Part shown: one piece after another, positions 7,146 to 32,545 of the stretch
Numbering within the stretch: the stretch's first letter is position 1
How the letters are laid out: every line of letters starts with the position of its first letter
Source: Henckelia pumila
Taxonomy: Eukaryota; Streptophyta; Magnoliopsida; Lamiales; Gesneriaceae
Assembly: GCF_033568475.1 (NCBI RefSeq)
Contig: NC_133120.1
Location: forward strand, 49,035,751 to 49,099,750
Length of the DNA stretch: 64,000 nucleotides
Reading direction: 5' to 3'
Program-made: the position numbers and the translations under genes
Notes under the pieces: model-generated
The model's database searches: none
Seen by the model: the letters and a program-made list of their open reading frames with translations, nothing else
Told to the model about the DNA's origin: nothing

Positions 7146-7640
7146 CACTACAAGAAAAATGGCCTACGACAACGCTTTTTTCGCGTTGTTAATGACCCCA
7201 AAAAAGCATTGTCGTAGCCAGTGTTGTAAAAGACCACGCTCAAAGACAACGCGGAAAAAGCGTTGTGGTTTTCGGAAAAAACAACGCTTAAAAAAGCGTC
7301 GTGGTATTTGGATACGACAACGCTTAAAAAGCGTTGTCGTATCTATTAAAAGCGTTGTGGTATTTTGATATTACAACGCTTTAGTACACTGAGGAAGCGT
7401 TGTCGTAGATTCAATCCACAACGCTTTATATGCGTTGTGATTTCTACAAACAACAACGCTTTTGCAGCGTTGTTGTTTGTAGAAATCACAACGCAGATAA
7501 AGCGTTGTGGATTGAAGCTACGACAACGCTTTCTCCGTGTAAAAAAGCGTTGTGCTTGGCAGATGTTGCTTAAAAAATCATTGTGCTACCAATAAAAAAC
7601 GTTGTCGTTAAGAACGTTGTTTTTGATTTTTTTTTCAAAT
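7146..7640. repeat. CACTA-1 left terminal and subterminal repeats
   Basis: After the terminal repeat, the motif GCGTTGT or its complement ACAACGC occurs at least fifteen times in both orientations up to about 7620. Several pairs form long palindromes, such as the one centred near 7327 (ACGACAACGC ... GCGTTGTCGT) and the one centred near 7465 (ACAACAACGC ... GCGTTGTTGT). In En/Spm such subterminal repeats are binding sites for the element's regulatory protein; that role is inferred here. Confidence 0.9.
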
Positions 7641-8318
7641 TTAAATTTCTATATAAATAACACTATTAAAATACATGAAATTGCAAATCTGTGGCAAAAT
7701 ATTCTTATAAAAAAGTATAGAGTCATTGTGTTGCAATATATTGAAATTGCAAAGTATCAACAAGCATTTAACGCTAGCTATCTCCACAAAGATGGTGCTG
7801 CAATATTGAAAGAAAATTGTTCCTAACAATGCAATTTTTCTGAATGCGACCACAGTTAGCGACGATCTCCGCCACCAGTAAGAACCAGACGATCTCCGCC
7901 ACCAGTAAGAACCAGACTTCTGAAATACAACATTAGATAACACATGTTAAATATAACATCATATCAAACCATATAAATCTAACCATAAATTTATAAATGA
8001 CAACACAGTGGAAGCATATCAAACATCATGAAACAGAAAATAGACTAACAAATGTAAACCTCATAACATGGGCTGCTTTCATTTTTATGTAAATTTACAG
8101 TTCATCACACATTAATAAGATTTTTACATTTTATTACTGGGAATATTATTGGACCCTTTAGTCAATCATGACCAAGAACAAGAAGAAAATCAATGATGAT
8201 TCAAAAGATAAGATAAGCCTGCTGCAGGCCTCGCCTACTGTCTAGAACATTAATTATATCATGCATGCGCAGCAACTAATTATATGAATTTTTACTTAAT
8301 CGATCAAATGGATAGCAG
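7641..8318. other. CACTA-1 interior, no gene seen
   Basis: AT-rich sequence with a tandem 29-bp-type repeat near 7858-7912 (GACGATCTCCGCCACCAGTA occurs twice). No coding similarity recognised. Confidence 0.5.
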
Positions 8319-8605
8319 GGGTTCTTGCTAATAGAACTGTTATGGCAGTCAAGCAGTTGGAGGGGATCGAGCAAGGCGAGAAACAGTTCAGAATGGAGGT
8401 GGCGACGATCAGTAGCACCCACCAGTTGAATCTGATGAGATTGATAGGATTCTGATCAGAAGGGAGGCATAGGCTATTAGTATATGAGTTTATGAGAAAC
8501 AGTTCTTTATAAAAGTTTCTATTCACCTCTGAGGAGCAATCTGGGAAGCATTTGAATTGGGAGTATAGGTATAATATCGCACTAGGAACCGCTAAGGGAA
8601 TCACA
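8319..8605 (+). pseudogene. Captured fragment of a G-type lectin S-receptor-like kinase
   Basis: The + strand encodes the N-lobe of a plant receptor-like kinase: GVLANRTVMAVKQLEG (VAVK-type lysine), GEKQFRMEVATISSTH, NLMRLIGF, RHRLLVYEFMRNSSL and LNWEYRYNIALGTAKGI. This closely resembles the At1g34300-type lectin receptor kinases. There are in-frame stops after LIGF (TGA near 8452) and after NSSL (TAA near 8508), and the piece ends before the catalytic loop. It is therefore a dead host-gene fragment carried by CACTA-1, in the orientation opposite to the transposase genes. Confidence 0.9.
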
Positions 8606-8836
8606 GACGCAAAGGAAAAAGAAGCATGAAAATAACGTAAACAACACACATTCGAACCAGTTTCAGAAGGCCTCGCCTACTGTCTGCTTGAAAAAAAAAT
8701 ATGGACAGTAGTTGCATGTGCCCAAACCACCAAATTCACGCATGTACTCCATGCACTCGAGGCTTTAATTAATTCAATGCATCCATGCATTATGATAGTT
8801 GTTGCATTATTCAAGACATAAAATACATGTGCATAC

Positions 8837-11787
8837 CTATTCATAAACGTGTTCTTGTATACATTCTGTCAACTCTGAAAGCACCTCTTTAATTTCTTCT
8901 AACGAGTACTCACCTTTTGAGAACTGTCACATATATATTATGTTAATAAAAAATCATATAACAATAACTTTGCAAATTTAAAACAATTTAGTTGTAATTA
9001 TTTGAGTTAAGAAAGATTACTATTGATCGTAGTGAAACGTTCTCGATATTCTCAACTTCTTGAATAATTTGTCTCATATATCTCATCACATAAAGACCAC
9101 ATTGTTTTGCATCTGGCTGCCGAGGACCCTATGGTAGTAGAGAAAAATTTTTGGTGACAAATTTAGATATTTAAACATAATATATTAAACATAAATTATG
9201 CATACCTGTACTACTACCCACATAGCATTCTTTCTACCCTTCCTTCCTTTGTTTGAGTTAAACAATCGCAAGGCCCTTCAATATACTTGATATATGAGTT
9301 TTTGTATGAGTGAAATAAATATTTGATAAAAATAAATAAATATAAACTCACATATCCACTACATATTTCCAATCATCATCACGAATGCGGTGACTTAAGG
9401 AATCCAACACATAAATAACATCCTTGTATGGTTGAATAACAGTGAGAATCCAATTATAGCTACGCAAAAAAAACATAATTAGTGCTTCTAATTCAATAAA
9501 TAATCGAAATAAAGCAACCAAATTGATATTTAAATTTTTACTTACCCGATATTACATGGCGCCAAAACTAGTTGATCAACCGATGCACCACTCAGTCTAT
9601 CTGCTAAAGCACTCGCCCTTTGGTTCAACCTTTCAAGCTTACTCTTTTTGTCATGTGTAGTTTCTCCCATATCCGAGATTCTGTGTGGATTCACAAATCT
9701 GAATTTTCCTTCCTTGTTATCTTCCAACATTTTTTTGTAAAGATACCTTTCATTGTAAATATAATAAAATAAAAATGAATGTAAGCAAAAATATGAAGTT
9801 GATGTATTACTTAGCTTAAAACCCAAAAAACTTACCATATATAGGCAATTACACAATTGCCTGATATTGGCCCAACATGATACAAACCATCAATGTCCTC
9901 ACAGTGCAAAAGAATTACACAATCATCATCGAACACCTCACGATCTAAACGCAGTGATATAAATCTTCCTTCACCCAAAGCATGCTTGCTATAACAATAC
10001 ATCATATGTAGTGACAGTGGGACAGAAGGTGACACAACATGTTTCTCTTTGGGTGGTGCCAAATCCTTCTTTCGAGGCTTCTATTAATTGTAAATACATA
10101 CAAGTTAGATAGGTTGAATAATGAATAAAGTTGCAATATCACATATACCTTATCTTGCTCCACTATCAAGTGTTGTGGCCAAGCCACATGGGTTCCAAGA
10201 GCATCGCCCACTACTTCACATTCATTTGCAATAGAAAATGGCAAAGGCGCTGATTTATCAACTACTACATCAATAGAGACTCGGTAGCAATTCTTTGGTA
10301 ATGGAACCCCATGAAGCAACTTTTGAGGATCAACACAAATAATTGTACCATAAGCAACAATATTTGTGCTAGATTCCAAAGTTAATGCAGCTGATTTACC
10401 CTAAAAAAGACAAATAGACATGTCAATAAGTTTTATTACATCTATTTAATATGACTCAAACTATTGTCATACCTGTAAAGCATCGACTTTGCTCAAAATC
10501 AGCACGTCTTCATAATCATTGTCTTCCATCTTGGCTTGGTTAACTTGATTTTTCACTGAGCAACTGCCTTTGTCATCCATTAAAATGTCGCGTGCACCCA
10601 TGTTATGCATCATTTCCTCAAGTCTTTGTAAGCGTGCACCTTGTTCAGAAATTATTCTATTTGCTTCCATCAACTTCATTTCATGCTCCACGAGTACATC
10701 TGTGGGAACTCCACTGCTCTTCAATGTTCTGCCAGCATTGAAATATAAGGTTGGAGTGACATGACCTCCAATCCCCCTCACACGCCCATCATATTCTTTG
10801 GTCTCAAGTGCTTTTGTAAGGATATCCTCTTTTGTCCCTTCAATTCTCAGCACACCATCTCTTTTTTGTTGGATATAATCATCATGTCATGCAAATTAAA
10901 AGAATAATTACTAAAACAATTGTCATTTCAAAAAACATGCTGATTTTCTAAAATGTGAATTCACTTACAATCTTTTGTACTCTTTGCGTCAAATCCTCCC
11001 CTTCAAAGTCTCCTGCTTTGTTGGCTCGTCCTTTCTTCCACATAATAGCCCTGTTAATGTCATCATCGTCACCTAATTCAGCCGCCTACAAGGAAGAAAA
11101 ATAAAATAACACATGTGAATAAATTGTATGTGAATAATTTGGATGGTTTGTAAAGAAATACTTACTATTTCAGACGCAAATCATGCATATCCCTTGCGTG
11201 AAAGCCGATGAGGATATACGTTTTGTTTTCTTCTATCTTTTTGTTGCTCACTTAGTTTCTAGTCATTTCAAATATGCGACAAGTCAAATTTGAATAATAG
11301 TTAAAGAAGGACTTTTGGTTGATTATGTACAAATTATAAAATAATAAAAAATCTTACAATGAAGTCTCCAGACATACGACTGATGACAAACGCACTCCAA
11401 TCATCTTTTGGTATACCATGACCAGCAGGTGGCTCATACAACTCCTCAGGTTTATCAAGCTTGCCTAAAATAAACGTCTGCGTAAGATGGGCTTTGTATT
11501 GACGCCACTTAATGTTTGCTGATCTCAAACAACCCTTCTTCCACTTTGCGTCAACATTATATGACAACTACAAATAACAAAAGCGAGAATACATTAGAAA
11601 TTAATAACATAATAATATTAAATATATCCTATATTTTAATACATGATAAATTACTTACATTAACCGAATCCCATATCAATTCTTTAACATCTATTGGAAC
11701 TTGCTTCCATGTCTTGTAAGAAATCTTGACCTTTTCCCGTGCAACCATGCCAATGTAACTCTGCATTCCAATAGCAGCTTCTCCCAT
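8837..11787 (-). pseudogene. CACTA-1 accessory gene: Transposase_24-like and Ulp1-like domains, about 12 exons
   Basis: Exons run from ATG at 11787 (MGEAAIGMQSYIGMV...) to TAG at 8837-8839. The first exons (11659-11787, 11358-11567, 11166-11258, 10969-11085) encode a Transposase_24/TNP1-like region with SANIKWRQYKAHLTQ and INRAIMWKKGR. Later exons (about 10473-10865, 10150-10400, 9837-10080, 9550-9750) include a predicted coiled segment (EHEMKLMEANRII). The last exons (9352-9459, ~9206-9285, ~9022-9129, ~8839-8927) form a C48/Ulp1-like domain with VIYVLDSL and QPDAKQCGLYVMRYM. The family His position reads Asn (YNWILTVI). A TGA at 11181-11183 in exon 3 interrupts SRKGYA-FASEI, so the copy is probably non-functional. 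Boundaries of the middle exons are approximate. Confidence 0.85.
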
Positions 11788-12430
11788 TTTTGCTTCTTTC
11801 ACTAATATTTATTGTTTGCAATTGTAGAGGGCAGAACCAACTTCACTAATCTGATTCTGCAAAAAATTTAATCTGCCATTAGCAAAGTGAGTGATTCTAA
11901 CAAAAAGTTTTAACAAGACTGAAGTTAATAGAATCTATGAGACGAATGGCACATAACAGATAGATTTAACATCAATATAAGATGAAAAAGTTCAGCACAA
12001 AACATAAGCAGACCTAATTTTTATACTAATTGTTGGCTGATGGTGCAACTCTTTGTATTGCAAGCCACCTTTCTAGTCATCACAAATTCGTAGGGATAAA
12101 AGAAAGAGCTGAGCTAAGGAGTTCCTCAACTAAGTTCAAGGTATCATCTGGGTTGAGTTTTTCAGCTCAACTGGAATTAAAGGATCAAACTGAGCTGGGA
12201 CATTTCCCTGCTCAACTTATCTCCACTCAGCTGACATCGATCCATGCAATATACAAAGTATTACTGTGGGGCCTTGCCAATCATCTAAGGGCTTGTCCCG
12301 AAGGATATATGGATATCCACATTAAAAGAAAAAAACCAAAATTACATTAATTTAGGGAAAACCAACGAGTATGCAACATTACTGGTATAAACTACAGAGA
12401 TAAGCCATTCACAAAAATAAAGATACTCAC
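11788..12430. other. CACTA-1 spacer between the two element genes, no gene seen
   Basis: No recognisable coding sequence. An open frame at 12030-12350 on the + strand is low in similarity to anything I know, and I treat it as chance. Confidence 0.45.
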
Positions 12431-12493
12431 AGATGAATACACTATCCCTACGAGCTCAAGAAAACCTGGGAGTAAAGGAACTTTGTCGATGGC
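12431..12493 (-). pseudogene. Captured exon of a CAAD/CURT1-like thylakoid protein
   Basis: A 63-bp segment lies between a good acceptor (TTTTCAAAACAG read on the minus strand) and donor (GTGAGT) and encodes AIDKVPLLPGFLELVGIVYS. This matches the signature of the CAAD domain of CURVATURE THYLAKOID 1-type proteins (ID-VPLLP-x-x-ELVG). Only this exon is recognised. A second possible exon at about 12645-12716 (VLASEKLLENKYKAAQRSKA) has an acceptor but soon meets a stop, and I cannot assign it. These look like host pieces carried between the two element genes. Confidence 0.6.
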
Positions 12494-13038
12494 CTGTTTT
12501 CAAATCAAAGACAGTGGACAGAAATTAAAAGATGAATTAAACCGTTAAATCAAATAAAATATATTGAAAATAAGTGCTTGCTATTCTACAGTTCAAACCA
12601 GATTTAGCCCCAAAAAAGCAGAAAAAACTTTGAAACAGCAGACGCTAATCAGGAACTGCTTTGCTTCGTTGGGCAGCTTTATATTTGTTCTCCAACAGCT
12701 TTTCAGAAGCCAAAACCTACAGCAAATACAAGCACTGATAAGTATTCGCTAGTTGTCGAACTCTTTCCTGTAAACTTTTAGATGCATTATGTAATCACAA
12801 ATAAATGCATTGTCTAGAAATAAGAAAGAAATATAGGCAACAACAAAAAATAAGAACAATTCATGTAAGATAGAAGTACTCTCAATATCCAAGAACTACT
12901 AATTTGCCATTGTTCGATTACTGAATGTCAAAAAATATCTGATCATAACTAACAATGTCAAACAAGCATCTTCAAAGCGTAAATAACATCTCAATGTAAA
13001 TTTTTTACAAATTCATCTCAAATGTGAAACTTAAGTAC

Positions 13039-16000
13039 TTAATTATTTTCAACCCAAATCCCATCACAGTCTTCACGAATGCATGGTTCATTGTCATCTG
13101 CAACATCAACATCCATTGGTGCTAACCCTCTGCTAGAAGACTGATAATGCATTGCAGTTTCTTCCAACTCTTCACCCTTTGTGTATTCAAAGTACTCCCT
13201 ACTTGGAGTCGCAAGTACAACACTCCATAAAGGATCTTCAGGAGCTTCAATGTAAAAAACTTGCTTCGCTTGGCTCGCTAAAATAAATGAATCAGATTTG
13301 TATCCAATTCTATGGAGGTTGACCAACGTGAATCCAAGATCATCTACCTTGATACCATTACTATTCTCCACCCAATTACATTTAAACATCGGAATTTGAA
13401 ATTTGTGGTAATCAACCACCCATATTTCTTGTATTACTCCATAAAAAACCATATCTGACACGATAGGATGTTTATCCTTTGCACTAGAAACTTGCATTGT
13501 CTTTGCAACTAAGCTGACTCCGGAGTTTTGAACAACTCGCATATCATCACGCTCTCTTGTAGCATAAGTAACCCCATCAATCAAATAACTAGAGTACTTT
13601 AAGACTTGCTTGGAAGGTCCACGCGCCATCCACTTTAATCTTTCGGGTACTTGATAAGTGGAATGATCATCAACACGTGCAACCTATATTATTTATGTGA
13701 TAACTTATTATTTATGCACAATCATGATAATAAATGTACGCCAATTGTGATAATAAATGAACTCACACGATCAAGCAACCAGGTACTAAACGTTCGGTTA
13801 TGCTCATCCTGTAACCACCTCTTGGACTTAGCCCTTTGTGGAAATCTTGCATTCAAATATGCCATGTGTTCCCTATTCAAATTATTATTACGAGTAAGCA
13901 AACATGTAGATTTAAGAAAACTTAATGAACATATTAGTAAGTGGAAGAAATTACTCAATATAGCGATCAGTGTCAACATCATTTTCCAATACATAACGAT
14001 GTGCTTGTTTCAACTCATCCTCAGCAATGGATTGCACAATTGCAACCGACAAAGGTTTAGTAAGTTCTATTTGTCGATGACTTGTAGGGATCCCAATTGT
14101 GTGCAAACTACCAAGATAGTCTGAGCAAAATTCAACCGCCTCTTCAGCAATATAACATTCAGCCATGCAACCTTCCGGTCTATTGCGATTTCGCACATAA
14201 CCTTTCAAAATCTTCATGTATCTTTCAAAGGGATACATGTACCTATACCAAACTGGGCCACATAATTTCACCTCTCGCACAAGATGAACTGTTAAATGAA
14301 TCATTATGTCAAAAAACGAAGGTGAAAAATACTTTTCAAGTAAACACAATATGATCACAATCTCTCTCTGCAGCTCATCCAACTTTGAGGGATTCATCAC
14401 TTTATTACATAGCTCATTGAAGAAGAAGAACAAACGAGTGATAGAGTCTCTGACATGTTTGGGCAAGACACCACGTATGGCCACTGGAAGTAATTGCTGC
14501 ATTAAAGTGTGGTAGTCGTGTGACTTAAGGCCAACAAGTTTCAAGTCCTTCATCGAAACAAAGTTTTTAACGTTGGATGAGTAACATGTAGGTAATTGCA
14601 TTCCACACAAAGAATTCAAAATCTTTCTTTTCTCATCTTTTGTAAGTGTATAACATGCTGCTGGCAGAAAAGATTTCTTCTCCCCCATCACTGGAGCCAA
14701 ATCTGTCCTCAAATTCATTTCAGCAAGGTCTAATCTAGCTGCAATTCCATCCTTTGTTTTTCCCGGAATGTCAAGCAACGTACCGAGAAGACTTTCATAG
14801 ACGTTCTTTTCTATATTCATCACATCAAGAACATGTCTAACATATAGATGTTTCCAATACTCAAGTTCAAAGAAAATTGATTTCTTTTTGAAGGATGGTT
14901 TTACATAATCCTTCGTGGACTGAATCTTCTTTCTCATTTTTCCCCAATGACAATGAATTCCATCGACTTTTTTTAACACTTCATCGCCACTCAATGGTTT
15001 GGGTGCAGGGTTGAACTCTTGGTACCCATTAAATGCCTTTCTTTGCCTTAGATAAGGATGATTTGCAGGTAGAAACCTTCTATGGCCTGTGTACGACATT
15101 TTCCTGCTATGTTTCAACCTTGTTGAATATGTTTCTTCACCACAAATCGGACATGCGTGATATCCTTTCACAATACATCCTGACATGTTTCCATATGCAG
15201 GAAAGTCATTGATGGTCCACAGCAAGACAGCTCTGAGCGAGAAGGTTTCTTGTCTATATGCATCATATGCTTCAACACTTGTATCCCATAGGAATTTCAA
15301 GTCATCGATTAGAGGTGCTAAGTAAACATCGATATCATTTCCTGGTTGTTTGGGACCAGAAATCAACATTGTGAGCATCATAAATTTTCTCTTCATACAC
15401 AACCACGGGGGAAGATTGTAAGTGATCATTAAAACTTGCCAACAACTATATGTAGAACTCATCATACCATGGGGATTGATCCCGTCAGCTGAAATGGACA
15501 ATCTAAGATTTCTTGAATCAGCAGCAAAATTTGGCCACTTGTGATCTACTAATTTCCAAGAAGGTGCATCAGCTGGATGGCGTAAGTATCCGTCATTAAG
15601 TCTTTTATCAGCATGCCAAGTCAGCTCCTTGGAAAACTCCTTATTCCAAAACATTCGTACAAATCTCGGAATTGGAGGGAAGTACCATAGAACCTTTGCA
15701 GGAACTCCTTCCTTTATCGTATCTTTTTGGCCCATCTTCCACCTTGACATCCCACAAGTAGGACAACTGTTCATGTCCTCATACTTCTTCCGGTATAAGA
15801 TGCAATCATTAGGACAAGCATGGATTTTCTCATAAGTAATCCCTAATGCACACAAGCTTTTCTTTGCATCGTAGAAAGATAAAGGCAATTCGTTGTCATC
15901 TGGAAGCATTTCTCCTAACAAATTGAGTAGGTCGGTGCAAATTTTGTCACTCCAACTATATTTGGCTTTCAAGTTGAATAATTTTACAACTGCAGATAAC

Positions 16001-16401
16001 CTTGTAAATTTACTGCATCCAGGATATAAAGGTTTCTCAGCATCTTCAAGTAGATTTTTGAATGTGGTTGGATTCTCAGCATAACTATCAAATGCAGCAT
16101 GCACCATATCTATTGGTTCCTCGGCATCAAACTTTGGTACATCTTCCCTTTCTTGATCACGATCATTATTTGAGTTCTTCATCGCAGACCTTTCACCATG
16201 CCATATCCAAGTATGATATGTCAAATCTATACCATTAAAATACACGTGTGCCCTTATAGTCTCTACCTTTTTCTTCTTCAGATTACCACATTTTGTACAT
16301 GGACAAGATATTGCTTCCCGATCCTCGGCATTTTTTATTGCAAATTTCAAGAAAGACTCTACTCCATGCTCATATTCCCTTGATAACCGAGACTTTGACA
16401 T
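13039..16401 (-). CDS. TNP2-type CACTA transposase, three exons, about 1,065 aa
   Basis: This is the protein expected to recognise and cut the CACTA ends. Exons are 16401-13955, 13872-13767 and 13683-13039, joined in phase by GT-AG introns, with start ATG at 16401 and stop at 13039-13041. The N-terminus has the transposase-associated domain with CPCTKCGN and HTWIWHGE. Next come CPNDCILYRKKYEDMNSCPTC, the Transposase_tnp2 core (FPAYGNMSGCIVKGYHACPIC, HLYVRHVLDVMNIEKNVYES), a DUF4218-like region (HLVREVKLCGPVWYRYMYPF) and, in exon 3, a DUF4216-like region (VFYGVIQEIWVVDY). I find no stop or frameshift in the modelled exons. A product of this length fits full-length plant TNP2 proteins. Confidence 0.92.
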
Positions 16402-16625
16402 CCATTCTTTTAGTAAGTAACACTATAGAGAATAAAATATATAATGTTAATATGTATATTTTCAAGCTGATGATAACCAAGACTTTGGCATCCATTCTTT
16501 GTCAATTTCAGGGGACGCAAAGCACATCATTGGCAATTTCAGGGAACTTCTTAAAGAGCTTTAGTATTTTCTGATTCTGATTTTTATACATATCATTGGC
16601 AATTTCAGGGAACGCAAAACAAATA
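16380..16625. repeat. Short local duplications upstream of the TNP2 start
   Basis: The segment around the transposase start codon (GATAACCGAGACTTTGACAT, about 16381-16412) is partly repeated as GATAACCAAGACTTTGGCAT at about 16469-16497. A second motif, ATCATTGGCAATTTCAGGGA, occurs at about 16527 and 16592, with a related piece near 16501. These are short direct repeats in the presumed promoter or 5' leader of the transposase gene. Confidence 0.7.
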
Positions 16626-17308
16626 ATCCATCTTCTGTTTCACCAATTGAGAAGCATATTCATTTAAATAGAAAACAAATAATTACATAGGTTAGCCAAA
16701 CATTAACTAGAATAGCCATCAGCTGGAGTTGGTAGTAATTTGGTGAGAAAAATGAGGTATAACTCAAAGATCATCACCAAAAAAAAAACAAAAAGGCTGT
16801 TATGCCAATTTAAAACAGTTGCCTTGCATGTTCAGGCATAATATATTCTACGGTTTTTATCATGTCAGCATGAACCAGAAAATAAATAAGCATCCACATT
16901 TAAACTACAAAATAAAGAATTAAAAAATAATTTTAATAGTCAGCTTAATGGTCAGCAACAAGATAAAGCAGTTCATAGAGTTGGCTACAGAATCGCCAAA
17001 TATTGGAAGAAATAAAATGTCTAAACAGAAGGGTACCTTCTTGAATTTCATATTTTAAATCAACAGAAAGATCTCTTAAACACAAAAGTTAATGGAAAAG
17101 TTAATGTCAACCCATGCAAACAAAAAAAATTATATGTTAATGGAAAAGAAATCATAATTTAAACCAACTTGAATCAAATCCACGACATTAAGTTAATCAT
17201 CAAAATTGATTTCTAATGATGCTCCTTTAAATTTTAATCTCCATATGGAAATAAGAAACAGGACAATGGGAAATTAAGCGTGCTTCCTCAAAAGCAAAAC
17301 AAGCATAC
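16626..17308. other. CACTA-1 interior, no gene seen
   Basis: AT-rich sequence without recognisable exons. It is likely the promoter side of the transposase gene or intron sequence of the captured fragment that follows. Confidence 0.4.
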
Positions 17309-17772
17309 CTGCTGGCCTCTATCAATGGAAGATGATCATTGTGTGGTTTTTCTATCACATTTTGTACCTGGAAATCCATAAATCATTGCATCATTATCAT
17401 CTGTTGTACAAGTTTTCCTAGACCATCTTTCTAGGCACATAAACTCATGAAAGGGTGAAGAATCTGAGACATATGAAGGCATCTTAGAGCAGTAGATTGA
17501 TATTTTGCATAGTGGGAACATATATTTTAAACAAAAATGTATATGAAACTTTAGCTACAGCAAACCTTGTGGTTTTGATAATTCCAATGACAATCAATCC
17601 TCAATTCTTACCAAAGAAAATGCAGATTCAGTAACTCTTGACTTTCTGGGGGTTGCTTTTTCAAATTCTGCGGCAATATGACAGTGAGCAGCTCTGGTTT
17701 TTTAGCACGAAGAGCTCCTCTGATTACGGCAATATTAGTACATGAAGCTCCTGATGTATAAATATGATTTTT
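17309..17772 (-). pseudogene. Captured exons of an unidentified conserved plant protein
   Basis: On the minus strand, exon 17772-17612 (acceptor TTTTTCTGCAG, donor GTAAGAA) encodes HIYTSGASCTNIAVIRGALR followed by KKPELLTVILPQNLKKQPPE. Exon 17350-17309 encodes EKPHNDHLPLIEASR. The composition and phrasing look like a real conserved protein, and both pieces seem to belong to one host gene, but I cannot name it. The residues between them (about 17351-17611) do not give a clear exon. It has no link to transposition and is best read as another captured host fragment. Confidence 0.5.
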
Positions 17773-18800
17773 CTGCAGAAAAAGAATATGGTTTTGAGAC
17801 AAGAATTCATACAGAAAATCATGGATATAAATGAGTGGACATCATAAAGAAAAAGAATCAACAGTTAAAGTGATAAGTCAGATTGAAAAATTCCAAAAAG
17901 AAGTCACATTTATGTTTACTCATTCCTTCTCAGCCATTTGGATAACTCAGTTTAAGAGAATTCACTTTGAATGGTCTAGGTTCATAAAAAGATAAATTCA
18001 TCACAAATAAGTAAATAATTTACTGGATATTCAAGCTACTACCATGGAACAAAATCAAGTCTCACATGCTTCTAATAAAAGATTGAATAAATGCAATGAT
18101 TGAAGGACATGGACCCATTTAAGGGGATCTCCATTTTTCCATAGAACTCGCAATTCTAAAGTTTACTGACTACCTTGAATTAATAAATTCAATGCTATAC
18201 TAAGTGGAGCACTCGGTCTCAACAAAGCTAGTGGACGCCCCTTTGGCTCTACAATTTTGGGAAGCCAAGTGTTAACAACAGTTTTTCATTAATTTTTTTT
18301 CTTTACGAAAATTGATTCTATAATCATATGGATTCAAGAAAACCAACAGAATATACCAATACAAAATCATAATCTCAGTTTCTATATTAACAAATTTTTG
18401 ATGTAATCACAGCCATGTTTCTCTGGATTAAAGTAGTGTCAGGGATTTTCTTCTAGGAACTGCTTTCTGTTCTTCCATTATAGAATTTTGAAATTCTGTG
18501 AAGGAAAATTTAAAGTAATTGTATTATTTCTCTGAAGAACAAAAATTTATGTAGTTTATTTGCTGTAATCACTGCCCTGTCTTCCCAAATATTATACAGG
18601 TTGGTTATCATGAATGATTGGAATATCAAAGCTTCCTCGAAAAATTGCTAAAGTTTTGGTAAATACATAAACTTTGACGAGAAAATAAAAAAAAAAAAAT
18701 TGGCAGCAACCACATCACACTATCACAGCAAGAAAAGGCAGATGAAAACGTGTACCAAAACAAAGTGTGAAGCAACAATCTTTCATCCGAGGTTGGCCAT
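17773..18800. other. CACTA-1 interior, no gene seen
   Basis: AT-rich sequence with no recognised exon. It may contain flanking intron sequence of the captured terpene synthase piece. Confidence 0.4.
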
Positions 18801-19839
18801 ACTAGAAGATGCCCTTGTTTTCACTAAAAACTGCCTCAAATCCATGGCACCAAACCTCAAGCATTCTCCCCTCAAGAAACAAGTAGAACATGCCCTTGTC
18901 CAAGCTTTACATTTCGGGTATCTAAGATTTGAGTTGTACCATTACATTTGTGTCTATGAAGAATATGAATACTTGAGGGATGAATCGCTTCTCAAGTTTG
19001 CCAAATTGGACTACAATGCATTGCAAATGCTGCACAAAAAAGAACTCTGTGAACTCTCGAGGTAACATTGCTCTCAATAACGTAATGACAATTAGTGCAA
19101 ATTAAATCTGGCCACAACATGCAACTAACCGTGGGAGAGGAATACCTTCGGATGAAAATTTTCATATTTATGAGCTATCTGCGTGTTTAGTTCTCTTATT
19201 ATATATCAGAAATGTTGGCAATCATGTTCAGGAGCTGAACGGCAATAGTTTGATTTTAAATCAACTTTGAAATTGAAATACATTAGGTTAATTATATATT
19301 TTTTAATTTGTTTCACAGGTGGTGGAAAGAATTGAACCTTACATCTAAACTTCCTTATGCTAGAGACAGACTTGTTGAGTGTTACTTTTGGGCTGTGGGA
19401 ACATATCATTTGCCTAAGTATTCTCGAGGCCGAGTCATGTTGACGAAAAACTTGAAAATGCTATCTGTACTCGACGACACATTTGACGTTTATGGTACAA
19501 AGGAAGAATTAGAAGCCTTTACCAAGGCAATTCAAAGGTAAAAGAAAGCATAAATAGCTCTAGTAAGTAATAAACATAAATCGTATCTACTTGACAATAT
19601 TATGGTCATGTTTATAGTTTGTGTCACTTAACCATTGCTCATGGTTGCTAAGACCAATTCATCCCAATTGCTAGCTTAATAATTAATTCATTGTTGGTTG
19701 TTTCAGGTGGGATATTAAAGAGATTGATCTACTGCCGGAGTATATGAAACCACTTTATTCCACCATGTTGACACTCTTTGAGGAATTTAAGGAAGAACTA
19801 GCTGCAGAAGGAAGATCAATTGCAACAAGCATTCACTAA
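18801..19839 (+). pseudogene. Captured fragment of a sesquiterpene synthase (TPS-a type), three exons
   Basis: Exons about 18801-19061, 19319-19537 and 19707-19839 are joined by GT-AG introns in correct phase. They encode the middle of a class I terpene synthase: [44 protein letters not shown], the [10 protein letters not shown] motif, the metal-binding DDTFD aspartate motif followed by [15 protein letters not shown], then RWDIKEIDLLPEYMKPLYS. The exon junctions match the usual terpene synthase positions. Similarity stops after FEEFKEELAAEGRS and the frame ends at TAA 19837-19839. The N-terminal domain and the NSE/DTE motif region are missing, so it cannot be a complete enzyme. It lies inside CACTA-1 in the orientation opposite to the transposase. 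Confidence 0.93.
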
Positions 19840-20640
19840 ATAATGAAACAATCGAGAGAATTTATCTAAAAAAGATCAAGGAAATAAATTATTTTCCCTG
19901 CAACCCACAAACACCTACTCTACAACAACAAAGGAAATCAAAAAGGCGAAACAGGATTGTTCATAAACAGTGAGACACAAAATTTTATAAATCAAGAAGG
20001 AGAGAAAGGGATCGTAATCGAGAAGGGGGAGAAGTCTGATTTGGGGATTTGGGACGAATAGATAACATAGTTTTGTACGAAGCCTGCAATACACTCACTG
20101 AAAAATGCCAGATTTTAGAATACAAAATCAAAGGGAACAAAATACGATAAAAGTTTCCACATACTTTGAGGAAACCAATTCTCCAAAGAGAAACAATGGC
20201 AAATAAACAAACAAACATACTCATTAAAATGCGACAAGAGTAAAATTCTCAAACAGATAGAAGGCATTCTACTCACCAAATTCTTGCCAGCACTTGCGTT
20301 GGATTCGCGACTCTTGGAGGTGAGTCCCGTGAGGGTATACGCATATAAACCCAAGTTGGAAGGAAATTAGAGCTCTTCCACTGGTGGTTGTTCCCTCAAG
20401 AAATAAAAGAAGCCGAGGAAATCGATTGCAAATTTAGAGCTCTTGGAGAAGGCTTGTCGGAGATCACTTCAAAATTCGTCTAAGAATCGAGCAAAAATTG
20501 ACATGGGATTTTCAATTGAAAGAGAGAAAAGGAGAAAGGCTAGGGATCAGACGCGAGAAGAGAAGGAATCGGGAAGCGTTTGATTTGGGGATCTGGTTAA
20601 TATTATTTATTTTATGATTTATTTTAAATAAAAATAATAC
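19840..20640. other. CACTA-1 interior, no gene seen
   Basis: A mixed stretch without recognisable coding similarity. It precedes the right subterminal repeats and may hold the promoter of the minus-strand element genes; I see no specific signal. Confidence 0.4.
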
Positions 20641-20825
20641 ATTTTCTACAACACTATTTAAAAAGGGTTGTTATACATGAAAAAAAAACGCTAATAGACA
20701 ACGCTTTTAAAAGCGTTGTCTTTGACCCCAAAAAAAGTCTATTCCACAACGCTTTGTAAATAAAGCGTTGTCTTTCTTAAATAAAAAACATATAACGACA
20801 ACGCTTTTAGTAAAAAGCGTTGTCT
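20641..20825. repeat. CACTA-1 right subterminal repeats (inner part)
   Basis: AACGCTTTTAAAAGCGTTGTC, CACAACGCTTTGTAAATAAAGCG and similar palindromes repeat the left-end motif. The block is cut at 20825 by CACTA-2 and resumes at 27098. Confidence 0.88.
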
Positions 20826-21540
20826 CACTAGTAGAAAAATCGCATAAGACTTCGGTTATTAACCGAAGTCGTAGGAACTTAATTACCAAAGTAGTGTCAC
20901 GTGAAGTAATAGGGTACTTTTTTACTTCGCTGAATCACCGAAGTCTTATACCTTAAATTACCGAAGTCTTTGGTCATTTTTTGGAGGCAGAATTGGACCG
21001 ATGCCGAAGTAAAAACATATATTTTACTTCGCTTATTTCATAAGTTACGAAGTCAAACATATGCTTCTACTTCGGTAATTAATGAATTTAATGAAGTAAC
21101 AACTATGATTATACTTCGGATGGTATACAAAGTGAAAGATTGTGTTTTACTTCGTTAATTTATTTTATCACCGAAGTAAAATGCAATCTTCTACTTCGCT
21201 TATTAATGAAATTACTGAAGCCATAGAATAGTTTTTTACTTCATCAATTTCATTAACAGACGAAGTGATATAATATCTTTTACTTCGTTAATTTTCTATA
21301 TTACCGTAGTAAAATGCATTCTTCTACTTCGTCTATTAATAAAATTGCCGAAGTAATAAAATTTGTTTTACTTCGGTATTTTGATTAATATACGAAGTAG
21401 AAGATAATGATTTACTTCCATATTTGTCGATTACTAAAATTGCCGAAGCAATAAAATACATATGACTGCAGCATTTAAATCAACAATGAAGTAAATTCTT
21501 CGATTTACTACGTTGATACTAAAATTGCTGAATTAATAGA
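20826..21540. repeat. CACTA-2 left subterminal repeats
   Basis: A hexamer-like core ACTTCG (or CGAAGT) recurs every few tens of bases in both orientations, often as ACTTCGGTAATT or ATTACCGAAGTA. Repeats become more decayed after about 21420. The density and the bidirectional arrangement are typical of CACTA subterminal regions. Confidence 0.9.
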
Positions 21541-21781
21541 ACACATTGCTTGTAAATTAAAATTTAGGTACAATAATGCCATAAATATATTTTTGAAACT
21601 TAAAATACACTAATAATAAATTCATCCCAAAACGACAAGCATACATAAGTCAACAAGTCTATCTACCAAAATAACGCGAAATTATATGCACATATCCACA
21701 CGTACTTTCTCAAAACTAAACGTGTACACATCCACACGTATTTCCTCAAAAGAATTTAATATCCCAACGTGAATGACATAT

Positions 21782-21880
21782 TTAAGCACCTACATGCGAG
21801 TAGACAAATTCACTCCATTCACTTCTAACTTCTTCAAATTGTTCTTGACTGTAACACTGATTCTTGATGCATCCTGCAAA
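21782..21880 (-). pseudogene. Possible terminal exon in CACTA-2 (32 codons plus stop)
   Basis: After an acceptor TGAATGTCAG, the minus strand reads 32 codons with a coding-like composition (CIKNQCYSQEQFEEVRSEW), then TAA at 21782-21784. Its phase (0) matches the end of the last TRAPPC13 exon at 22279. I do not recognise the protein. It may be another captured exon or chance open sequence. Confidence 0.4.
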
Positions 21881-22278
21881 CTGACATTCAAAAAAATATA
21901 GGAATGTCACGGTAAACCAACAAGGCAGCAGTTGCAAAATGAAATCCAAAACAAAGAATAAGCAACAATCTATTTGGTATGCATGTTGACATGTATGATC
22001 AGCTAGTTATGGGTTTTAAAACTTGCCACAAAAATTGTTGTTCAAGATCATCTTTGCTTAAAACAATCCATACACGGTTGAAATTAAATGATTATATTGA
22101 CACTTTTAAAATAGATTTGTTCAAAACATAAATAATTAGAATCCTTTAGCTTATCCACATGTAATAGGAGAAGCATTACACCTGGAATAAAGAGACAATC
22201 TCATCCTATCATGTTCAGGATGGAATCAGTGTTTGAAACTTAGGGTTGCAACAAATCAAGCCATTTTAAAAGACTCAC

Positions 22279-23866
22279 CACTGTCTGACGACCATTTACC
22301 ATTACTATCTTCTCATCAAGTGTATTACTTTCTGATAACCATACTTCAAAGGGCCCAAGAACTCTTTCAGTCTGGTTTACGAGATTCAAGCGTGCCTAAA
22401 TAAGGATATCAAGAATGTGAATGATTAAGCTTAGACATAGTGAATCATGCATTAAAAAAAATAACTTATACTGTGTTTTGTGCATGGCTAAAAGAATATA
22501 AATTTCCAGCGACCTCACTTGGCAATGGTACAGTTGTGATCAGCACTCTTGAGGCCACCATTTACATAATTTAGCAGGCAAACTCTAATAAACAGAAGGA
22601 CAATCCTAAGGGCCACTTTTCTGTGAGAATGCTCATTTTGTGACTACCAAAACAAACGGGAAATCCAAGCTTTATCCTTCAGCGGGATAAAAATATAATT
22701 GATGTTGTTCTTCATAATAAAATAGCTCGATCATAAGTCATTATTTAAAAATAGCAAAGGCATGAGGACATTTCTTCACAAAAGGGGGACCAAATATGAA
22801 TTAAGTAAGAAGTTCAATAAATGCATACGACCATATCTAGAAAAGTATGGAGGTTACCACAAAAGGTTTCTCCATTATAATGACGGAAGGCACCTCAATA
22901 GCTTGCAATTCAATCTCCTTGCGTGTGATGGGCTGCAAAGGAGTAAATAATGATAGCGGTAAGAATAGAAAAATGTGATACTAAAAAAATCTACGTTATT
23001 AACTCTTTTGTTAGGGCATTTGTTTACCCTTTTGTCTGCTGCGGATTTCTTGCCCGCCTTTTGTAACCATTAACTTACTATATTAATATATCATCGTTTC
23101 TTATCCAAAAGAATATATATTAAAATATATACTTTACTGAATCAGCCCTTCACACCAAAACCAAAGTATTCAGACCCTAAATATGGTCAAATTACAATAG
23201 ACAATTCCATTAGTGTTGACTTCTAATTATTGAATTAGATATCAGTGAAAAGATTTCATTTTAAATAATGTTTGTCATTTCAGATGTATCTAGTCAGCAG
23301 GGGGATAAAAGTTAGAATTCAATACATGTCAAAATTTTAAAGTAAAAAACCAATAAAAAAAATCAACTTACATTTCCTAGAATATTTTGAGTCTGCAGGC
23401 GACCAGGTTCGCCCAAATTTGTTCGCCATGTTATCTGAAGCTTACCAAGAATATTACTTCCCTCAAGTTTCACTCGTGCACTGTCCTGTGATGACAACCT
23501 TAACTGATAGAGATAGTTGTAAATTCCTCCTCCAGCTCTAATGAGAATGGGTTCCTTAAACACTTTTCTGCCAAAACAATCTAGTGTTCACTTTAACTAC
23601 TATAAAGAAGGTGATGCCAACACCAAGTTATATAAGTACATACTTAAATGGTTAAATTAAACCATTAAAAAGAATAAAAAACCAAGATTGCGAATTAATT
23701 AGAATAATTTTCAAAATCACCTCGTCAATAGATTGCGTTCCGAAAGGTGACTATCAGCTTTGAGCACTGTTGCAGTCCAATTCTGTGCTGGCTCAAACTC
23801 AACTTGGTCCATGCATAGATTAGATTTTGTATTATTTTCTATACAAGCCTCCAAAAAAGTGTTTTC
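22279..23866 (-). pseudogene. Captured four-exon fragment of TRAPPC13 (TRAPP complex subunit)
   Basis: TRAPPC13 is a subunit of the TRAPP tethering complex in vesicle traffic. Four exons with canonical splice sites and matching phases are visible on the minus strand. 23866-23721 has FLEACIENNTKSNLCMDQVE. 23567-23372 has GGGIYNYLYQLRLSS and the family hallmark WRTNLGEPGRLQT. 22932-22858 has PITRKEIELQAIEVPSV. 22395-22279 has LGPFEVWLSES. They join to 178 codons without a stop. The N- and C-terminal parts of the protein are missing. Introns were captured too, so the piece came from genomic DNA and not mRNA. It lies in CACTA-2 alongside other host fragments in the same orientation. Confidence 0.85.
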
Positions 23867-24119
23867 CTGAGGGGAAGGACGATTTGACGATCATGAAAGG
23901 GAAGAAGCTCAACAGCTACCTCTAATTTACAAATATTTGCATCTCATCCGGAAAAATTAAATGCACGTTTTACTGCAACATCGAACTTTAAAACAGGTCA
24001 AAGAAAACTAGAATGCAGAGAGGTGGAACATTTAATTTCCCCAGCTTCATATTTATGATCCTATGTTTAATAACCAAATAAGAAGTGACTGAACATATAT
24101 ATATATAAAAAAATGATAC

Positions 24120-24226
24120 CTCCCCAGAGAGGTGGAACACCACTGAGTAAAATATAGAGCATCACTCCCGCCACACTCCAAATATCAGCTACAGAGTCGT
24201 AATTTCAACGCAAAACTTCAGGATTT
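24120..24226 (-). pseudogene. Captured fragment of a calcium-dependent protein kinase (CDPK)
   Basis: The minus strand encodes PEVLR, then a stop (TGA near 24207), then NYDSVADIWSVAGVMLYILL and SGVPPLWGE before a GTATCA donor. This is kinase subdomains VIII-IX as found in CDPKs ([31 protein letters not shown]). The stop replaces the second Arg of LRR. No other kinase exon is recognised nearby. Confidence 0.82.
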
Positions 24227-24229
24227 GAA

Positions 24230-25057
24230 ACTTGTTGCAACTAATTAGATCTTTCTCCTTCCAAACTTGTTAGAATTTAAGTAACAAAGGCTGGAATGCA
24301 GAGATTGTTAACGTAGCTAAGTATCTTCGGAAAAGGGCTGATACACATCTGAAACAGTCTGTTAGGATCTGCATTTTAATGAAAAATGCAGTAACAAAAC
24401 TCGCCCAACTTCGAGCTATAACATGGATTTTAGGATCTAAGTTTTTTTGAATGAAAAATGCAACAGCAAAACTCACCCAACACTTACAATTCAGAGCTTG
24501 GATTTAGGGCTTTGGGTCGTGGCTAGGTACAGGGCAGTCGAGACCTCGTTCCGATGTTGCAGAGTTGAAGTGATGCACAACAAAAGGGAGAAAAATACAC
24601 CTGAAATCCAGAAACTCAATAACTCTACCTGAAAAATACACAACCATTACAATATCACAGATTATCAATACTCTACAAAATTATACTTAAGGTGAAGCAG
24701 CAATGGAAAACGCCAAGTGGCTGGAGAAAAATCACGAGTTTTATTTCACAGCAGCAAAACTTTCCAGAATTAGGGCCATGATAGGATTATGGGGTGTTAT
24801 TTCTTGCTAAACACATACAATTTCAATCACATTTATCATTAAGGCTGCGGTTGTACAAATTCCAAGTGTAAGGAATAAAGTTTCCCAAGAATCAGGCACC
24901 ATAGGATTTCTGTATCAATCAACTCCCTAGAAAGAAAAGGCCCGTGTTCACAGTTCTTAAATATCGAACTCCATTAACAGACACAGGAATATTACTAAAA
25001 ATATATGTTCAACAAAGATATACAAGATTTAAAAATAACTGAAAAATTGAAACAAAC
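24230..25057. other. CACTA-2 interior, no gene assigned
   Basis: The sequence includes a short internal direct duplication near 24361-24480 (ATGAAAAATGCA followed by AACAAAACTC or AGCAAAACTC, then GCCCAAC or ACCCAAC). No recognised exon is present. It may contain captured intron sequence. Confidence 0.4.
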
Positions 25058-25105
25058 CTTAGCTAGAGAAACATAATCCTTCAAACCACCGATCAATTCT
25101 CGTAT
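25058..25105 (-). pseudogene. Possible 48-bp captured exon of unknown origin
   Basis: Between acceptor CAAATCTCAG and donor GTTTGT, the minus strand reads exactly 16 codons, IRELIGGLKDYVSLAK, in phase 0 at both ends. The sequence looks like conserved protein but I cannot assign it; it does not belong to TypA as I know that family. Evidence is limited to splice sites and composition. Confidence 0.4.
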
Positions 25106-25424
25106 CTGAGATTTGAAACATAAAATCCATTAATGAGCAGAAACAAATTGAAAGGGATCCCATTTCTAAACTGACTAGACATCAGTATATATTATGAGCA
25201 GAAAATATCTTCTCTATACTTTTATGTTAAACAAAAATCCAATATTTTTCACGCTGCCAGGCTTGAGGCATAATGAGACTCCGCAGTTGTATTACTGCAC
25301 ATGGCTGGGGGTATTTCTTAATGCACCTTAAATTAAAGTACAGAAAATTCAAGAAAAGATAGAAGATTTGTCATCATTTACTTTTATCAGTAGATTAACA
25401 AGGGATGAAAACTTATAACCTTAC

Positions 25425-25776
25425 CTCAGGATCGACAAAAGGTGAATTATTGATAGAGAAAGCCATTGTCGGTTCTTCCACCTTTATAGAGGGTAATGGC
25501 TTCCCAAAAGTTTTGTTTGCAATTGTCTCCCCAATCTGGATCGATGAAAGAAATTTATTGTCATGATTTTCACGATAGCAGAATATGAAAATACATAAGA
25601 CGAGAGACAAATAAATTCTCCTTATACTAATTTGACCCTACCTGAATATCATCGATTCCACAAACGGCACAACTATCGCCAACCTCTATCGTTTCGGCAG
25701 GAACTCTACTGAATTTATCATACACAAATAGTTCACTTACTCTAGCATATCTGCACTCATCATCTGAGGAACAAAC
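25425..25776 (-). pseudogene. Captured two-exon fragment of plastid TypA/BipA GTPase (SVR3-like)
   Basis: TypA/BipA is a ribosome-associated translational GTPase; the plant plastid form is SVR3. Exon 25776-25642 (45 codons) encodes CSSDDECRYARVSELFVYDK and VEVGDSCAVCG-like text (here IEVGDSCAVCGIDDIQ). Exon 25535-25425 (37 codons) encodes IGETIANKTFGKPLPSIKVE and SINNSPFVDPE. This is domain II/III of the protein. Both exons are open and have canonical borders. The second carries a small deletion in the EEPTV-F segment and a changed FVG motif. The GTPase domain and the C-terminus are absent. Confidence 0.87.
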
Positions 25777-26534
25777 CTAAAGGCATGAATAAGACATGTA
25801 AAAAAAATCATCATCTACACAACAAGGATACAATTGATCCAAACATAAGAATTATCATTTTTTAGCATGATTCCTTGATGTGAAGCAAGGGTGAAGCTAG
25901 AGGTGCAAAATTATAAGAATCAAACTCCAGAATAATATGAAGTTGAAATTTTAACAAGAAGGTACAGAGAAATCGAGATAATATATTGTGCAAAACGAAA
26001 AATATAAATACAAGAAACCAAGTCAATACAAATCATTTTTCCTTAAAAATAACAGGACATTCAATTAAGTAGTCTGATATATAAAACACACATCAAGTAT
26101 GAACTTATCCACTCATATCCAAAAACATCAATTAAACTAGATCATTTCAAACAAAACAACGAAAAAAAAATCAAAATAAATTCAGATCTATAAAAATAAA
26201 AACAGATCAATAAAAACTATGACGACATAAACGTCATATCCGAGTCAAGCGTAGTCGATTTCTTCAAAATTACCAATCCTTTCAAATAAAAATCTCGAAC
26301 AAATAAGGTAAAAGTAGATCTGCGCACAAATCAATTTCAAGATCTCACAGTCATGTTACACAAATAGCCAAAAATCGAGTCATAAAATCACAAAAAATGA
26401 AAAAGTATTCAGCTACTAGTAGGAAAATAACAGGAAACAGAGCAATAATAATAACCACCTTTTCGAAAATAGGGAGGCGGCGAGTCTGCAGCGGCGTCGC
26501 TAGCTTCCAATGAGACGAATGATGGGGTGTTCAG

Positions 26535-26597
26535 CCGCATCACACCCATGGATGCCACCCCAACACCGCTCTTCGTCGTGTCATACGCGGCTCCCAT
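26535..26597 (-). pseudogene. Captured fragment of V-ATPase proteolipid subunit c
   Basis: The minus strand reads MGAAYDTTKSG followed by [11 protein letters not shown], which matches the first transmembrane/loop region of plant VHA-c ([20 protein letters not shown]) with two substitutions. Similarity starts at an internal Met of the native protein and ends at MR. The frame continues with unrelated residues to a stop at 26409, and upstream to another ATG at 26714. The piece sits just inside the right subterminal repeats of CACTA-2 and could supply a start codon for a chimeric minus-strand transcript. Confidence 0.82.
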
Positions 26598-26869
26598 ACT
26601 TGCAGGGATAGAGTTGGAATAATCGAAAGAAAAGCCTAAATCTGAAAAAAAAAAAAAAAATTCGAAGAGATCGTGAAGTTTAAAAGAAGGGGAAAAGATG
26701 CGCATACCCATCAAAATTGAAAAGGATCGTGAATCTTGAGGCTTCTGGATCTCGAGGAAGCATCAAGAAAATAGAATCCAGATTGAGAGAAAACTAAGGA
26801 GATCGAGAGAAAGATGGTTTGACGAAGATTATAAGTTAACAGAGAAAACAAGACCTATTACTTCACGAG

Positions 26870-27097
26870 ATATAAATTAAAAATTTTATTTTCATCTTTC
26901 TACTTCATCAAATTTAATTTGATGAAGTAAAAAGTCGAATAAAAATTTAAGTGAAGCCCGGTTTTTTAATTGATGAAGTCTAAAGTATATTTTACTTCGG
27001 TAATTTTATAACCGCAGTAAATAACTATGTATTACTTCGGTAATAGTGATCACCGAAGTAAAAAATAGCGAAGTAATATGCAGAAATTCTACTAGTG
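26870..27097. repeat. CACTA-2 right subterminal repeats
   Basis: ACTTCGGTAAT and CGAAGTAA motifs recur up to the terminus TTCTACTAGTG. The arrangement mirrors the left end. Confidence 0.87.
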
Positions 27098-27174
27098 TCT
27101 TTCAAAAAATTACAACACTTTTCACTAAAAGCGTTGTCTTTTAGGGGTTGTGTTTGTGCATTTTTCTTGTAGTG
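27098..27174. repeat. CACTA-1 right terminus, outer part
   Basis: Begins with TCT, the second target duplication copy of CACTA-2, then holds one more AAGCGTTGTC motif and the inverted terminus CATTTTTCTTGTAGTG. Immediately outside lies GCC (27175-27177), the right duplication of CACTA-1. Confidence 0.92.
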
Positions 27175-31555: not shown

Positions 31556-32545
31556 GGAACTAGATGGGTGATCGTGGATAGACTCACCAAGTCAGCTCAT
31601 TTCTTGCCGGTGAGGACTACTTACTCGTTGACACAGTATGCAGAGCTTTATATCAAGGAGATTGTTAGACTGCAAGGCATACCAGTGTCGATAGTATCAG
31701 ACAGGGATCCGAGATTTACATCTGCTTTCTGGAAGAGTTTGCACACAGCATTGGGGACTAGATTATTATTCAGTACAACGTTCCATCCCCAGACAGATGG
31801 TCAGTCTGAGAGAGTGATCCAGGTTCTTGAGGATCTACTGAGAGCTTGTGTCATCGACTTTCAGGGCTCTTGCGAGACTAGATTGCCGTTGGTGGAGTTT
31901 ACCTATAACAACGGCTTTCAGGCATCTATAGGTATGGCTTCTTATGCAGCTCTCTACGGGAGGAGATGCAGATCTCCCGTGCATTGGGATGAGGTTGGCG
32001 AAAGGATTCTACTTGGTCCCGAGATTGTACAGCAGACTGCAAACACTGTGATTCAGATTCGGAATCGTATGAGGACTGCTCAGAGTCGTCAGAAGAGTTA
32101 TGTTGATACTCGACGACGGGATCTCGAATTTGTTGTTGGCGATCATGTGTTTCTGAAGATATCACCTATGAAAGGGGTGATGAGATTTGGTCGAAGAGGT
32201 AAGCTGAATCCGAGGTATATTGGGCCTTTTGAGATCTTGGAGAGAGTTGACACGTTGGCCTACCGTTTGGCCTTGCCACCCGAGGCTTGCGGCAGTGCAC
32301 AACGTCTTCCATGTATCCATGCTACGGAGATACATCACGAACCCGTCGCATTGCGGTTAGCACCGAATCTAGTGTTTGAGGAGAGGCCTGTTCGGATCTT
32401 AGCTAGAGAGGAGCGGAGATTGAGGACGCGGGTCATACCGAGGGTCAAAGTCAAGTGGGTGAATCATTCCGAGGAGGAAGCCACTTGGGAGACCAAGGCA
32501 GACATGAGGACTCGCTACCCGGAGCTATTCGGGCAAGTACTTTAA
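31556..32545 (+). pseudogene. Gypsy integrase C-terminal part, copy 2 (open, 330 codons)
   Basis: The longest uninterrupted copy. It reads from [12 protein letters not shown] through [18 protein letters not shown] and HPQTDGQSER to EEATWETKADMRTRYPELFG, lacking the zinc-binding N-terminus and the first catalytic Asp region. All copies have one extra base near CCACCC(G/A)(A/G)GGCTTGCGG. In this copy a 19-bp deletion about 60 bp downstream (near 32349) restores the original frame, leaving about twenty altered residues and loss of the DYEP segment. It is open but not a normal integrase. Confidence 0.85.

Follow-up and report, generated by a model that had tools for sequence, protein, structure and literature searches.

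The 64,000-nucleotide window of the Henckelia pumila genome analysed here (NCBI RefSeq assembly GCF_033568475.1, contig NC_133120.1, positions 49,035,751 to 49,099,750 of the forward strand) holds, at positions 20826-27097 of the window, a CACTA-type DNA element with pieces of the genes for V-ATPase subunit c, TypA/BipA, a calcium-dependent protein kinase (CDPK) and TRAPPC13 in its interior. This element, very probably a Pack-CACTA and so called below, lies within a larger, transposase-encoding CACTA element, a nesting that was overlooked by the earlier note on this stretch, and the larger element is in turn held by a tandem retrotransposon array. The features are collected in Table 1.

Table 1. 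Features of the Pack-CACTA and of the CACTA element that encloses it, in window coordinates (TSD, target-site duplication)
Feature	Positions	Strand	Remarks
Pack-CACTA element	20826..27097		6,272 bp; TSD, ends, subterminal repeats, host-gene fragments
Left TSD, TCT	20823..20825		
Right TSD, TCT	27098..27100		
Left terminal inverted repeat, CACTAGTAGAA	20826..20836	+	11/11 identical to right end
Right terminal inverted repeat	27087..27097	-	
Left subterminal repeat region	20849..21398		19 ACTTCG/CGAAGT motifs
Right subterminal repeat region	26994..27074		4 motifs
Start-bearing exon-like stretch	26459..26597	-	46 codons and 1 base; 3' limit is the chosen GT
TypA/BipA captured exon 1 of 2	25642..25776	-	PDB match; splice sites, phase
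TypA/BipA captured exon 2 of 2	25425..25535	-	PDB match; lacks two residues of the aligned BipA chains
U1, exon-like, no assigned gene	25058..25105	-	16 codons, AG/GT flanks; no PDB or Pfam match
U2, exon-like, no assigned gene	24601..24628	-	28 bp, AG/GT flanks; weakest item
CDPK exon piece	24120..24222	-	about 34 codons; stop in frame; one codon more than in the kinase
TRAPPC13 captured exon 1 of 4	23721..23866	-	Pfam, splice flanks, phase
TRAPPC13 captured exon 2 of 4	23372..23567	-	Pfam, splice flanks, phase
TRAPPC13 captured exon 3 of 4	22858..22932	-	order, phase, plant sequences; no Pfam match of its own
TRAPPC13 captured exon 4 of 4	22279..22395	-	order, phase, plant sequences; no Pfam match of its own
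U3, possible exon-like, no assigned gene	21790..21880	-	AG acceptor, open frame
Enclosing CACTA	7146..27174	-	TSD GCC; both ends agree over their first 16 bases; site empty in three sister units
TNP2-type transposase frame of enclosing CACTA	13954..16422	-	823 open codons
DUF4216 frame of enclosing CACTA	13042..13683	-	E=1.6e-19
TNP1/EN/SPM (Transposase_23) frame of enclosing CACTA	10005..10400	-	borderline: E=2.8e-4, 21.1 bits against a cut-off of 21

The Pack-CACTA is limited exactly by positions 20826 and 27097, with the junctions TCT/CACTAGTAGAAAAATCGC...GCAGAAATTCTACTAGTG/TCT (slashes mark the borders), and its initial 11 bases, of the CACTA...TAGTG type, are the same at both ends. Precise element ends and a TCT duplication had been claimed from the letters of the stretch, and both were confirmed, the duplication on either side of 20826-27097. 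A scan of the window for end pairs, covering 52 CACTA and 61 TAGTG sites with a spacing of 300-25,000 bp and an identical 3-bp flank, let 41 pairs pass, among which the Pack-CACTA ranked second with 3 mismatches over the first 14 bases and the enclosing CACTA ranked first with 0 mismatches over the same length. In the first 600 bp of the Pack-CACTA there are 19 occurrences of the motif ACTTCG/CGAAGT, against a mean of 0.175 and a maximum of 2 in 1000 single-base shuffles of that end region, and in the last 230 bp there are 4 (mean 0.047 and maximum 2 in as many shuffles), with both orientations present in the subterminal regions and a single occurrence between them. By its ends, its 3-bp TSD and its subterminal repeats, the stretch 20826-27097 belongs to the CACTA (En/Spm) superfamily.

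TRAPPC13 is represented by four exons. The joined exons matched TRAPPC13_M, the middle domain of the protein, over residues 2-110 with an E-value of 1.2e-20 in Pfam, and two single exons also scored over the cut-off (E=6.7e-11 and 1.4e-7), while Pfam returned nothing for exons 3 and 4 searched together with the tail of exon 2. When all four were joined, 178 codons were read without a stop, with AG and GT at the flanks and agreeing phases at the junctions (2/1, 0/0 and 0/0). An origin of the string VMRL..PSF, among the unassigned pieces, from the start of TRAPPC13 was considered and found no support in any search.

The two TypA/BipA exons comprise 82 open codons with AG/GT flanks and phases 0/0. 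Their best match in PDB had an E-value of 1.1e-7, and of the top six matches four carry the name BipA or TypA/BipA and the other two simply that of a 'GTP-binding protein', with the Pfam match to GTP_EFTU_D2 (E=1.5e-4) falling under the cut-off. In the CDPK piece, the part past the stop found calcium-dependent protein kinase 3 as the best PDB match (E=1.5e-6), and the Pfam match to Pkinase (E=0.0082) was likewise under the cut-off. V-ATPase subunit c occupies the first 21 codons of the start-bearing stretch (26535-26597); the match, with an E-value of 4e-5, extends over 27 residues, five of which precede the start codon, and this piece had no match in Pfam. As for the remaining pieces, the second half of the start-bearing stretch, U1 and U2 yielded nothing convincing in Pfam, the end of TypA/BipA together with U1 and U2 had no PDB match up to E=10, and U3 gave chance-level Pfam matches only (E=0.16 and 0.18). 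The Pfam and PDB matches thus uphold the earlier note in its assignment of pieces from four unrelated host genes, all on the minus strand, each of them a fragment. Between U2 and the CDPK piece lies a 36-bp direct repeat (24374-24409 and 24446-24481), whose copies are 86% identical and start 72 bp apart.

Each of the six exons of TRAPPC13 and TypA/BipA has AG directly before it and GT directly after it. The exon limits were placed at AG/GT under the guidance of the translations, and the independent evidence consists of the phase match within each gene and the open joined frame. Because the phases match and the joined exons stay open, the fragments were most likely copied from genomic DNA, introns included, and the intron-exon pattern of these two genes bears out the genomic origin that had been proposed from the captured introns. 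The damage to the CDPK piece, set against the intact TRAPPC13 piece, could reflect different capture ages, which is only a hint.

No transposase family was found in the Pack-CACTA among the ten stretches and 70 frames scanned against Pfam; small remnants are possible. The frames overlapping the element number 171, of which about half were scanned, the rest being mostly shorter or situated within the ends. The 70 interior frames (42 on the plus and 28 on the minus strand, each of at least 33 codons and not all such frames) include two that duplicate members of the ten stretches scanned earlier. Regarding further captured genes on either strand, these 70 frames produced two weak Pfam matches (E=0.033 and 0.048), which were taken as chance, and no plus-strand captured gene was detected at the sensitivity of Pfam in the scanned frames, a plant protein library not being part of the search. 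RNA families were absent from the window, and no tRNA was found with the bacterial settings used.

The enclosing CACTA has a length of 20,029 bp, or 13,754 bp once the nested element and a single TSD copy are subtracted. Its end CACTACAAGAAAAATG is located at 7146 and recurs in inverted form at 27174, GCC flanking the element on either side, and the corresponding sites in sister repeat units of the array, at 33197, 39232 and 47351, are empty and read ...CCCAGCA/GCCCCATAG... without interruption. The TNP2 frame matched Transposase_21 (E=1.1e-96), DUF4218 (E=1.4e-41) and Transpos_assoc (E=8.7e-22); with a predicted TNP2 gene and a TNPA/TNP1-like gene between CACTA ends, the element appears to be of the autonomous type. 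Its subterminal motif ACAACGCTTT/ACAACGCTTA, together with the complements, was found at 7169-7553, at 20698-20823 and at 27128, hence on both sides of the Pack-CACTA, which therefore split the right subterminal region of the enclosing element, 77 bp from the end. This is the 5', promoter-side end, the side being judged from the direction of the transposase frames, and the assigned captured pieces run in the same direction as these frames. Since the two elements differ in their ends and in their subterminal motif, the enclosing CACTA is no obvious mobilising partner of the Pack-CACTA. The nesting also gives the order of events, in which the array unit came first, the enclosing CACTA second and the Pack-CACTA last.

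It is considered very probable that 20826-27097 is a non-autonomous Pack-CACTA of the En/Spm type carrying genomic pieces from four or more plant genes inside a CACTA of another family. Several points weigh against this explanation. BLAST found no match of the Pack-CACTA elsewhere in the window that could serve as a second copy with the same ends, and internal remnants of ends did not rise above chance. The V-ATPase c piece (21-27 codons) and the CDPK piece (about 34 codons) are very short, and the joined TRAPPC13 exons found no relative in a PDB search (best E=0.68, unrelated), so that their identity is given by Pfam alone. That the pieces were captured from this very genome is presumed.

The Pack-CACTA would have been mobilized in trans, by a transposase working on its CACTA ends and a TNPA-type protein working on its ACTTCG subterminal repeats, and would have inserted, with duplication of TCT, 77 bp inside the end of the other-family CACTA. 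Capture may have proceeded piecewise, perhaps when copies lying next to each other were excised aberrantly; in the published Pack-CACTA model, copies insert locally and are then excised aberrantly with terminal deletions (PMC13317346, PMC8903248). Stepwise acquisition of the pieces fits this model and is plausible. Within the element, the closest resemblance to the left end (26415-26428) and that to the right end (near 21690) were both rejected as fossil ends, as 20 and 22 of 200 dinucleotide shuffles, respectively, scored as well; candidates at the level of shuffled sequence do not speak for a fusion of adjacent copies as the route of capture, and the missing remnants neither support nor exclude the aberrant-excision model. 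The captured fragments would be decaying passengers that give rise, at most, to alternatively spliced chimeric RNA.

A leader-like stretch for the transposase gene, recognized by eye, starts near 20600 on the minus strand, and this stretch together with captured pieces that run parallel to the transposase frames makes read-through from the enclosing element possible. The Pack-CACTA lies between the promoter-side end of the enclosing CACTA and its transposase gene, and transcription from the promoter there could take in the captured exons and join them, by alternative splicing, to one another or to the transposase gene; in addition, the enclosing CACTA could carry the whole set along when moving, despite the different families. 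This combined scenario is rated as unlikely. Provided that the region is transcribed, chimeric RNA could plausibly form in the absence of selection. On the minus strand, TATA-like strings occur near 27010, 26874 and 26834; being common in AT-rich DNA, they were set aside as evidence.

In the earlier note, the shared orientation of the pieces was taken to suggest that read-through from one promoter may have been favoured, or that the pieces were acquired one after another. The first of these readings amounts to selection for a single transcript encoding a chimeric protein or acting as a regulatory RNA. All four assigned pieces do lie on the minus strand, but such a placement has a chance of 1/8. 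The right end of the Pack-CACTA offers a leader-like stretch, again recognized by eye, with a start codon at 26597, and the TypA/BipA exons, U1 and the four TRAPPC13 exons would form 276 codons in one frame if U2 and the CDPK piece were skipped; this joint frame, however, contains no start. Of the 12 GT sites past the start codon, five (26564, 26558, 26543, 26516 and 26438) would put the start in phase with the first TypA/BipA exon when phase alone is considered, whereas the donor taken as likeliest (AAG/GTGGTT, 26458) leaves the start-bearing exon out of phase. Joined to either TypA/BipA exon, to U1 or to any of the first three TRAPPC13 exons, the start-bearing exon runs into a stop after 51-75 codons, and among the seven single pieces joined in this way (the fourth TRAPPC13 exon and the CDPK piece being left out) only the 28-bp U2 stays open. 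The CDPK piece, moreover, contributes a stop and an extra codon. With the five in-phase GT sites, an in-frame chimeric protein is conceivable, and selection for one fusion protein is unsupported rather than refuted. Selection for a single read-through transcript as the cause of the shared orientation appears very unlikely, and with the chance of 1/8, the stop in the CDPK piece and the phase at 26458, the orientation lends no support to favoured read-through.

A single uptake of all fragments from one contiguous host locus would agree with their occurrence in one element and in one orientation. Only part of the exons of each assigned gene is present, however, unlike what neighbouring whole genes would leave, and the Arabidopsis orthologues of the captured genes, which we take to lie on different chromosomes, were also weighed against a common locus, whose involvement is regarded as highly improbable. 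Pack-MULEs and Helitrons likewise hold several gene fragments, but another gene-capturing class, or a misassembly, is scarcely credible here, as Mutator-type elements generate a 9-bp TSD and Helitrons have distinct ends of their own, unlike the 3-bp TSD and CACTA ends observed, and as the TSDs of the two nested elements are perfect and three sister units have an empty site where the enclosing element lies.

The array that holds the enclosing CACTA extends over 4816-49538 with a period of about 6.03 kb and one spacing of about 8.1 kb, its units being 96-98% identical. In one unit, the frame 31550-32542 matched a Tf2-1-like SH3 domain (E=5.6e-17) and, just under the cut-off, a chromodomain (24.1 against 25.1 bits), matches that would resemble those of Ty3-type elements. 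Two further repeat pairs were noted in the window, 44221-46071 with 61638-63495 (91% identity) and 51250-52884 with 60000-61641 (79% identity); in the latter pair, the minus-strand frame 51390-52469 matched a Tf2-1-like SH3 domain and, weakly, an integrase and a chromodomain.

CACTA elements that capture genes are already on record from soybean, morning glory, Arabidopsis and maize, and these systems are compared here with the H. pumila Pack-CACTA. The closest precedent is Tgm-Express1 from the wp allele of soybean, a CACTA element of the same architecture with 5.7 kb (6.3 kb here) that contains intron and exon regions of five unrelated genes, for an unknown protein, CDC2, FPK, malate dehydrogenase and cysteine synthase (PMC1947982). 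Its captured exons are spliced into varied chimeric transcripts from an outside promoter (PMC1947982). Tgm-Express1 differs in the genes it captured and in its position within an intron of F3H rather than in the end of a CACTA, and the H. pumila element is known from sequence alone. In maize, Pack-TYPE elements often contain more than one locus, Pack-CACTAs most of all, and in rice this was significant in Pack-Mariners only (PMC8903248). Five genes within 5.7 kb (PMC1947982) and the Pack-CACTAs of maize (PMC8903248) speak against the view, held in the earlier note, that the capture of several genes by one such element is unusual.

The Pack-CACTAs of Arabidopsis, rice and maize share with the present one the CACTA ends, the TSD and the captured coding DNA without a transposase, and several source loci are reported for those of maize and Arabidopsis, as here (PMC8903248, PMC13317346). 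The published annotation pipeline requires family copies in clusters, whereas the present element was judged from a single copy in the window. Similarly, the Tpn1 family of Ipomoea nil, with a mean length of 7,081 bp, consists mostly of non-autonomous CACTA elements with a 3-bp TSD, subterminal repeats and interiors made of captured host genic regions; its contents differ from those described here, and the comparison is one of general architecture (PMC5105172).

In the genus Chenopodium, the CACTA elements named Jozin have similar ends, with the sequence CACTAGTAGAAA in C. pamiricum and C. iljinii, as well as subterminal repeats, and captured gene fragments are reported in Chenopodium CACTA elements (PMC8978399). 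Different from the Pack-CACTA, Jozin has a transposase, and its motif in C. pamiricum is TATTTGTAACTA, against ACTTCGG here (PMC8978399). The 12-base end in common does not establish a close relationship. A literature search with the string CACTAGTAGAAA returned Chenopodium CACTA elements and unrelated archaeal work only, and under that string the present element is not described in the papers searched. The enclosing CACTA, for its part, resembles Tgmt* of soybean (20.5 kb) in its length of about 20 kb, its tnp2 and TNP1 domains, its 3-bp TSD and its asymmetric subterminal repeats (PMC2613891); in H. pumila, however, about 6.3 kb of the 20.0 kb are made up by the nested Pack-CACTA.

The H. pumila Pack-CACTA offers a clean and sharply bounded case of several genes captured by one CACTA element, found at an unusual address, the promoter-side end of another CACTA. 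The divergences of its pieces from their donors, if obtained, would date the captures and separate stepwise from single-event acquisition.

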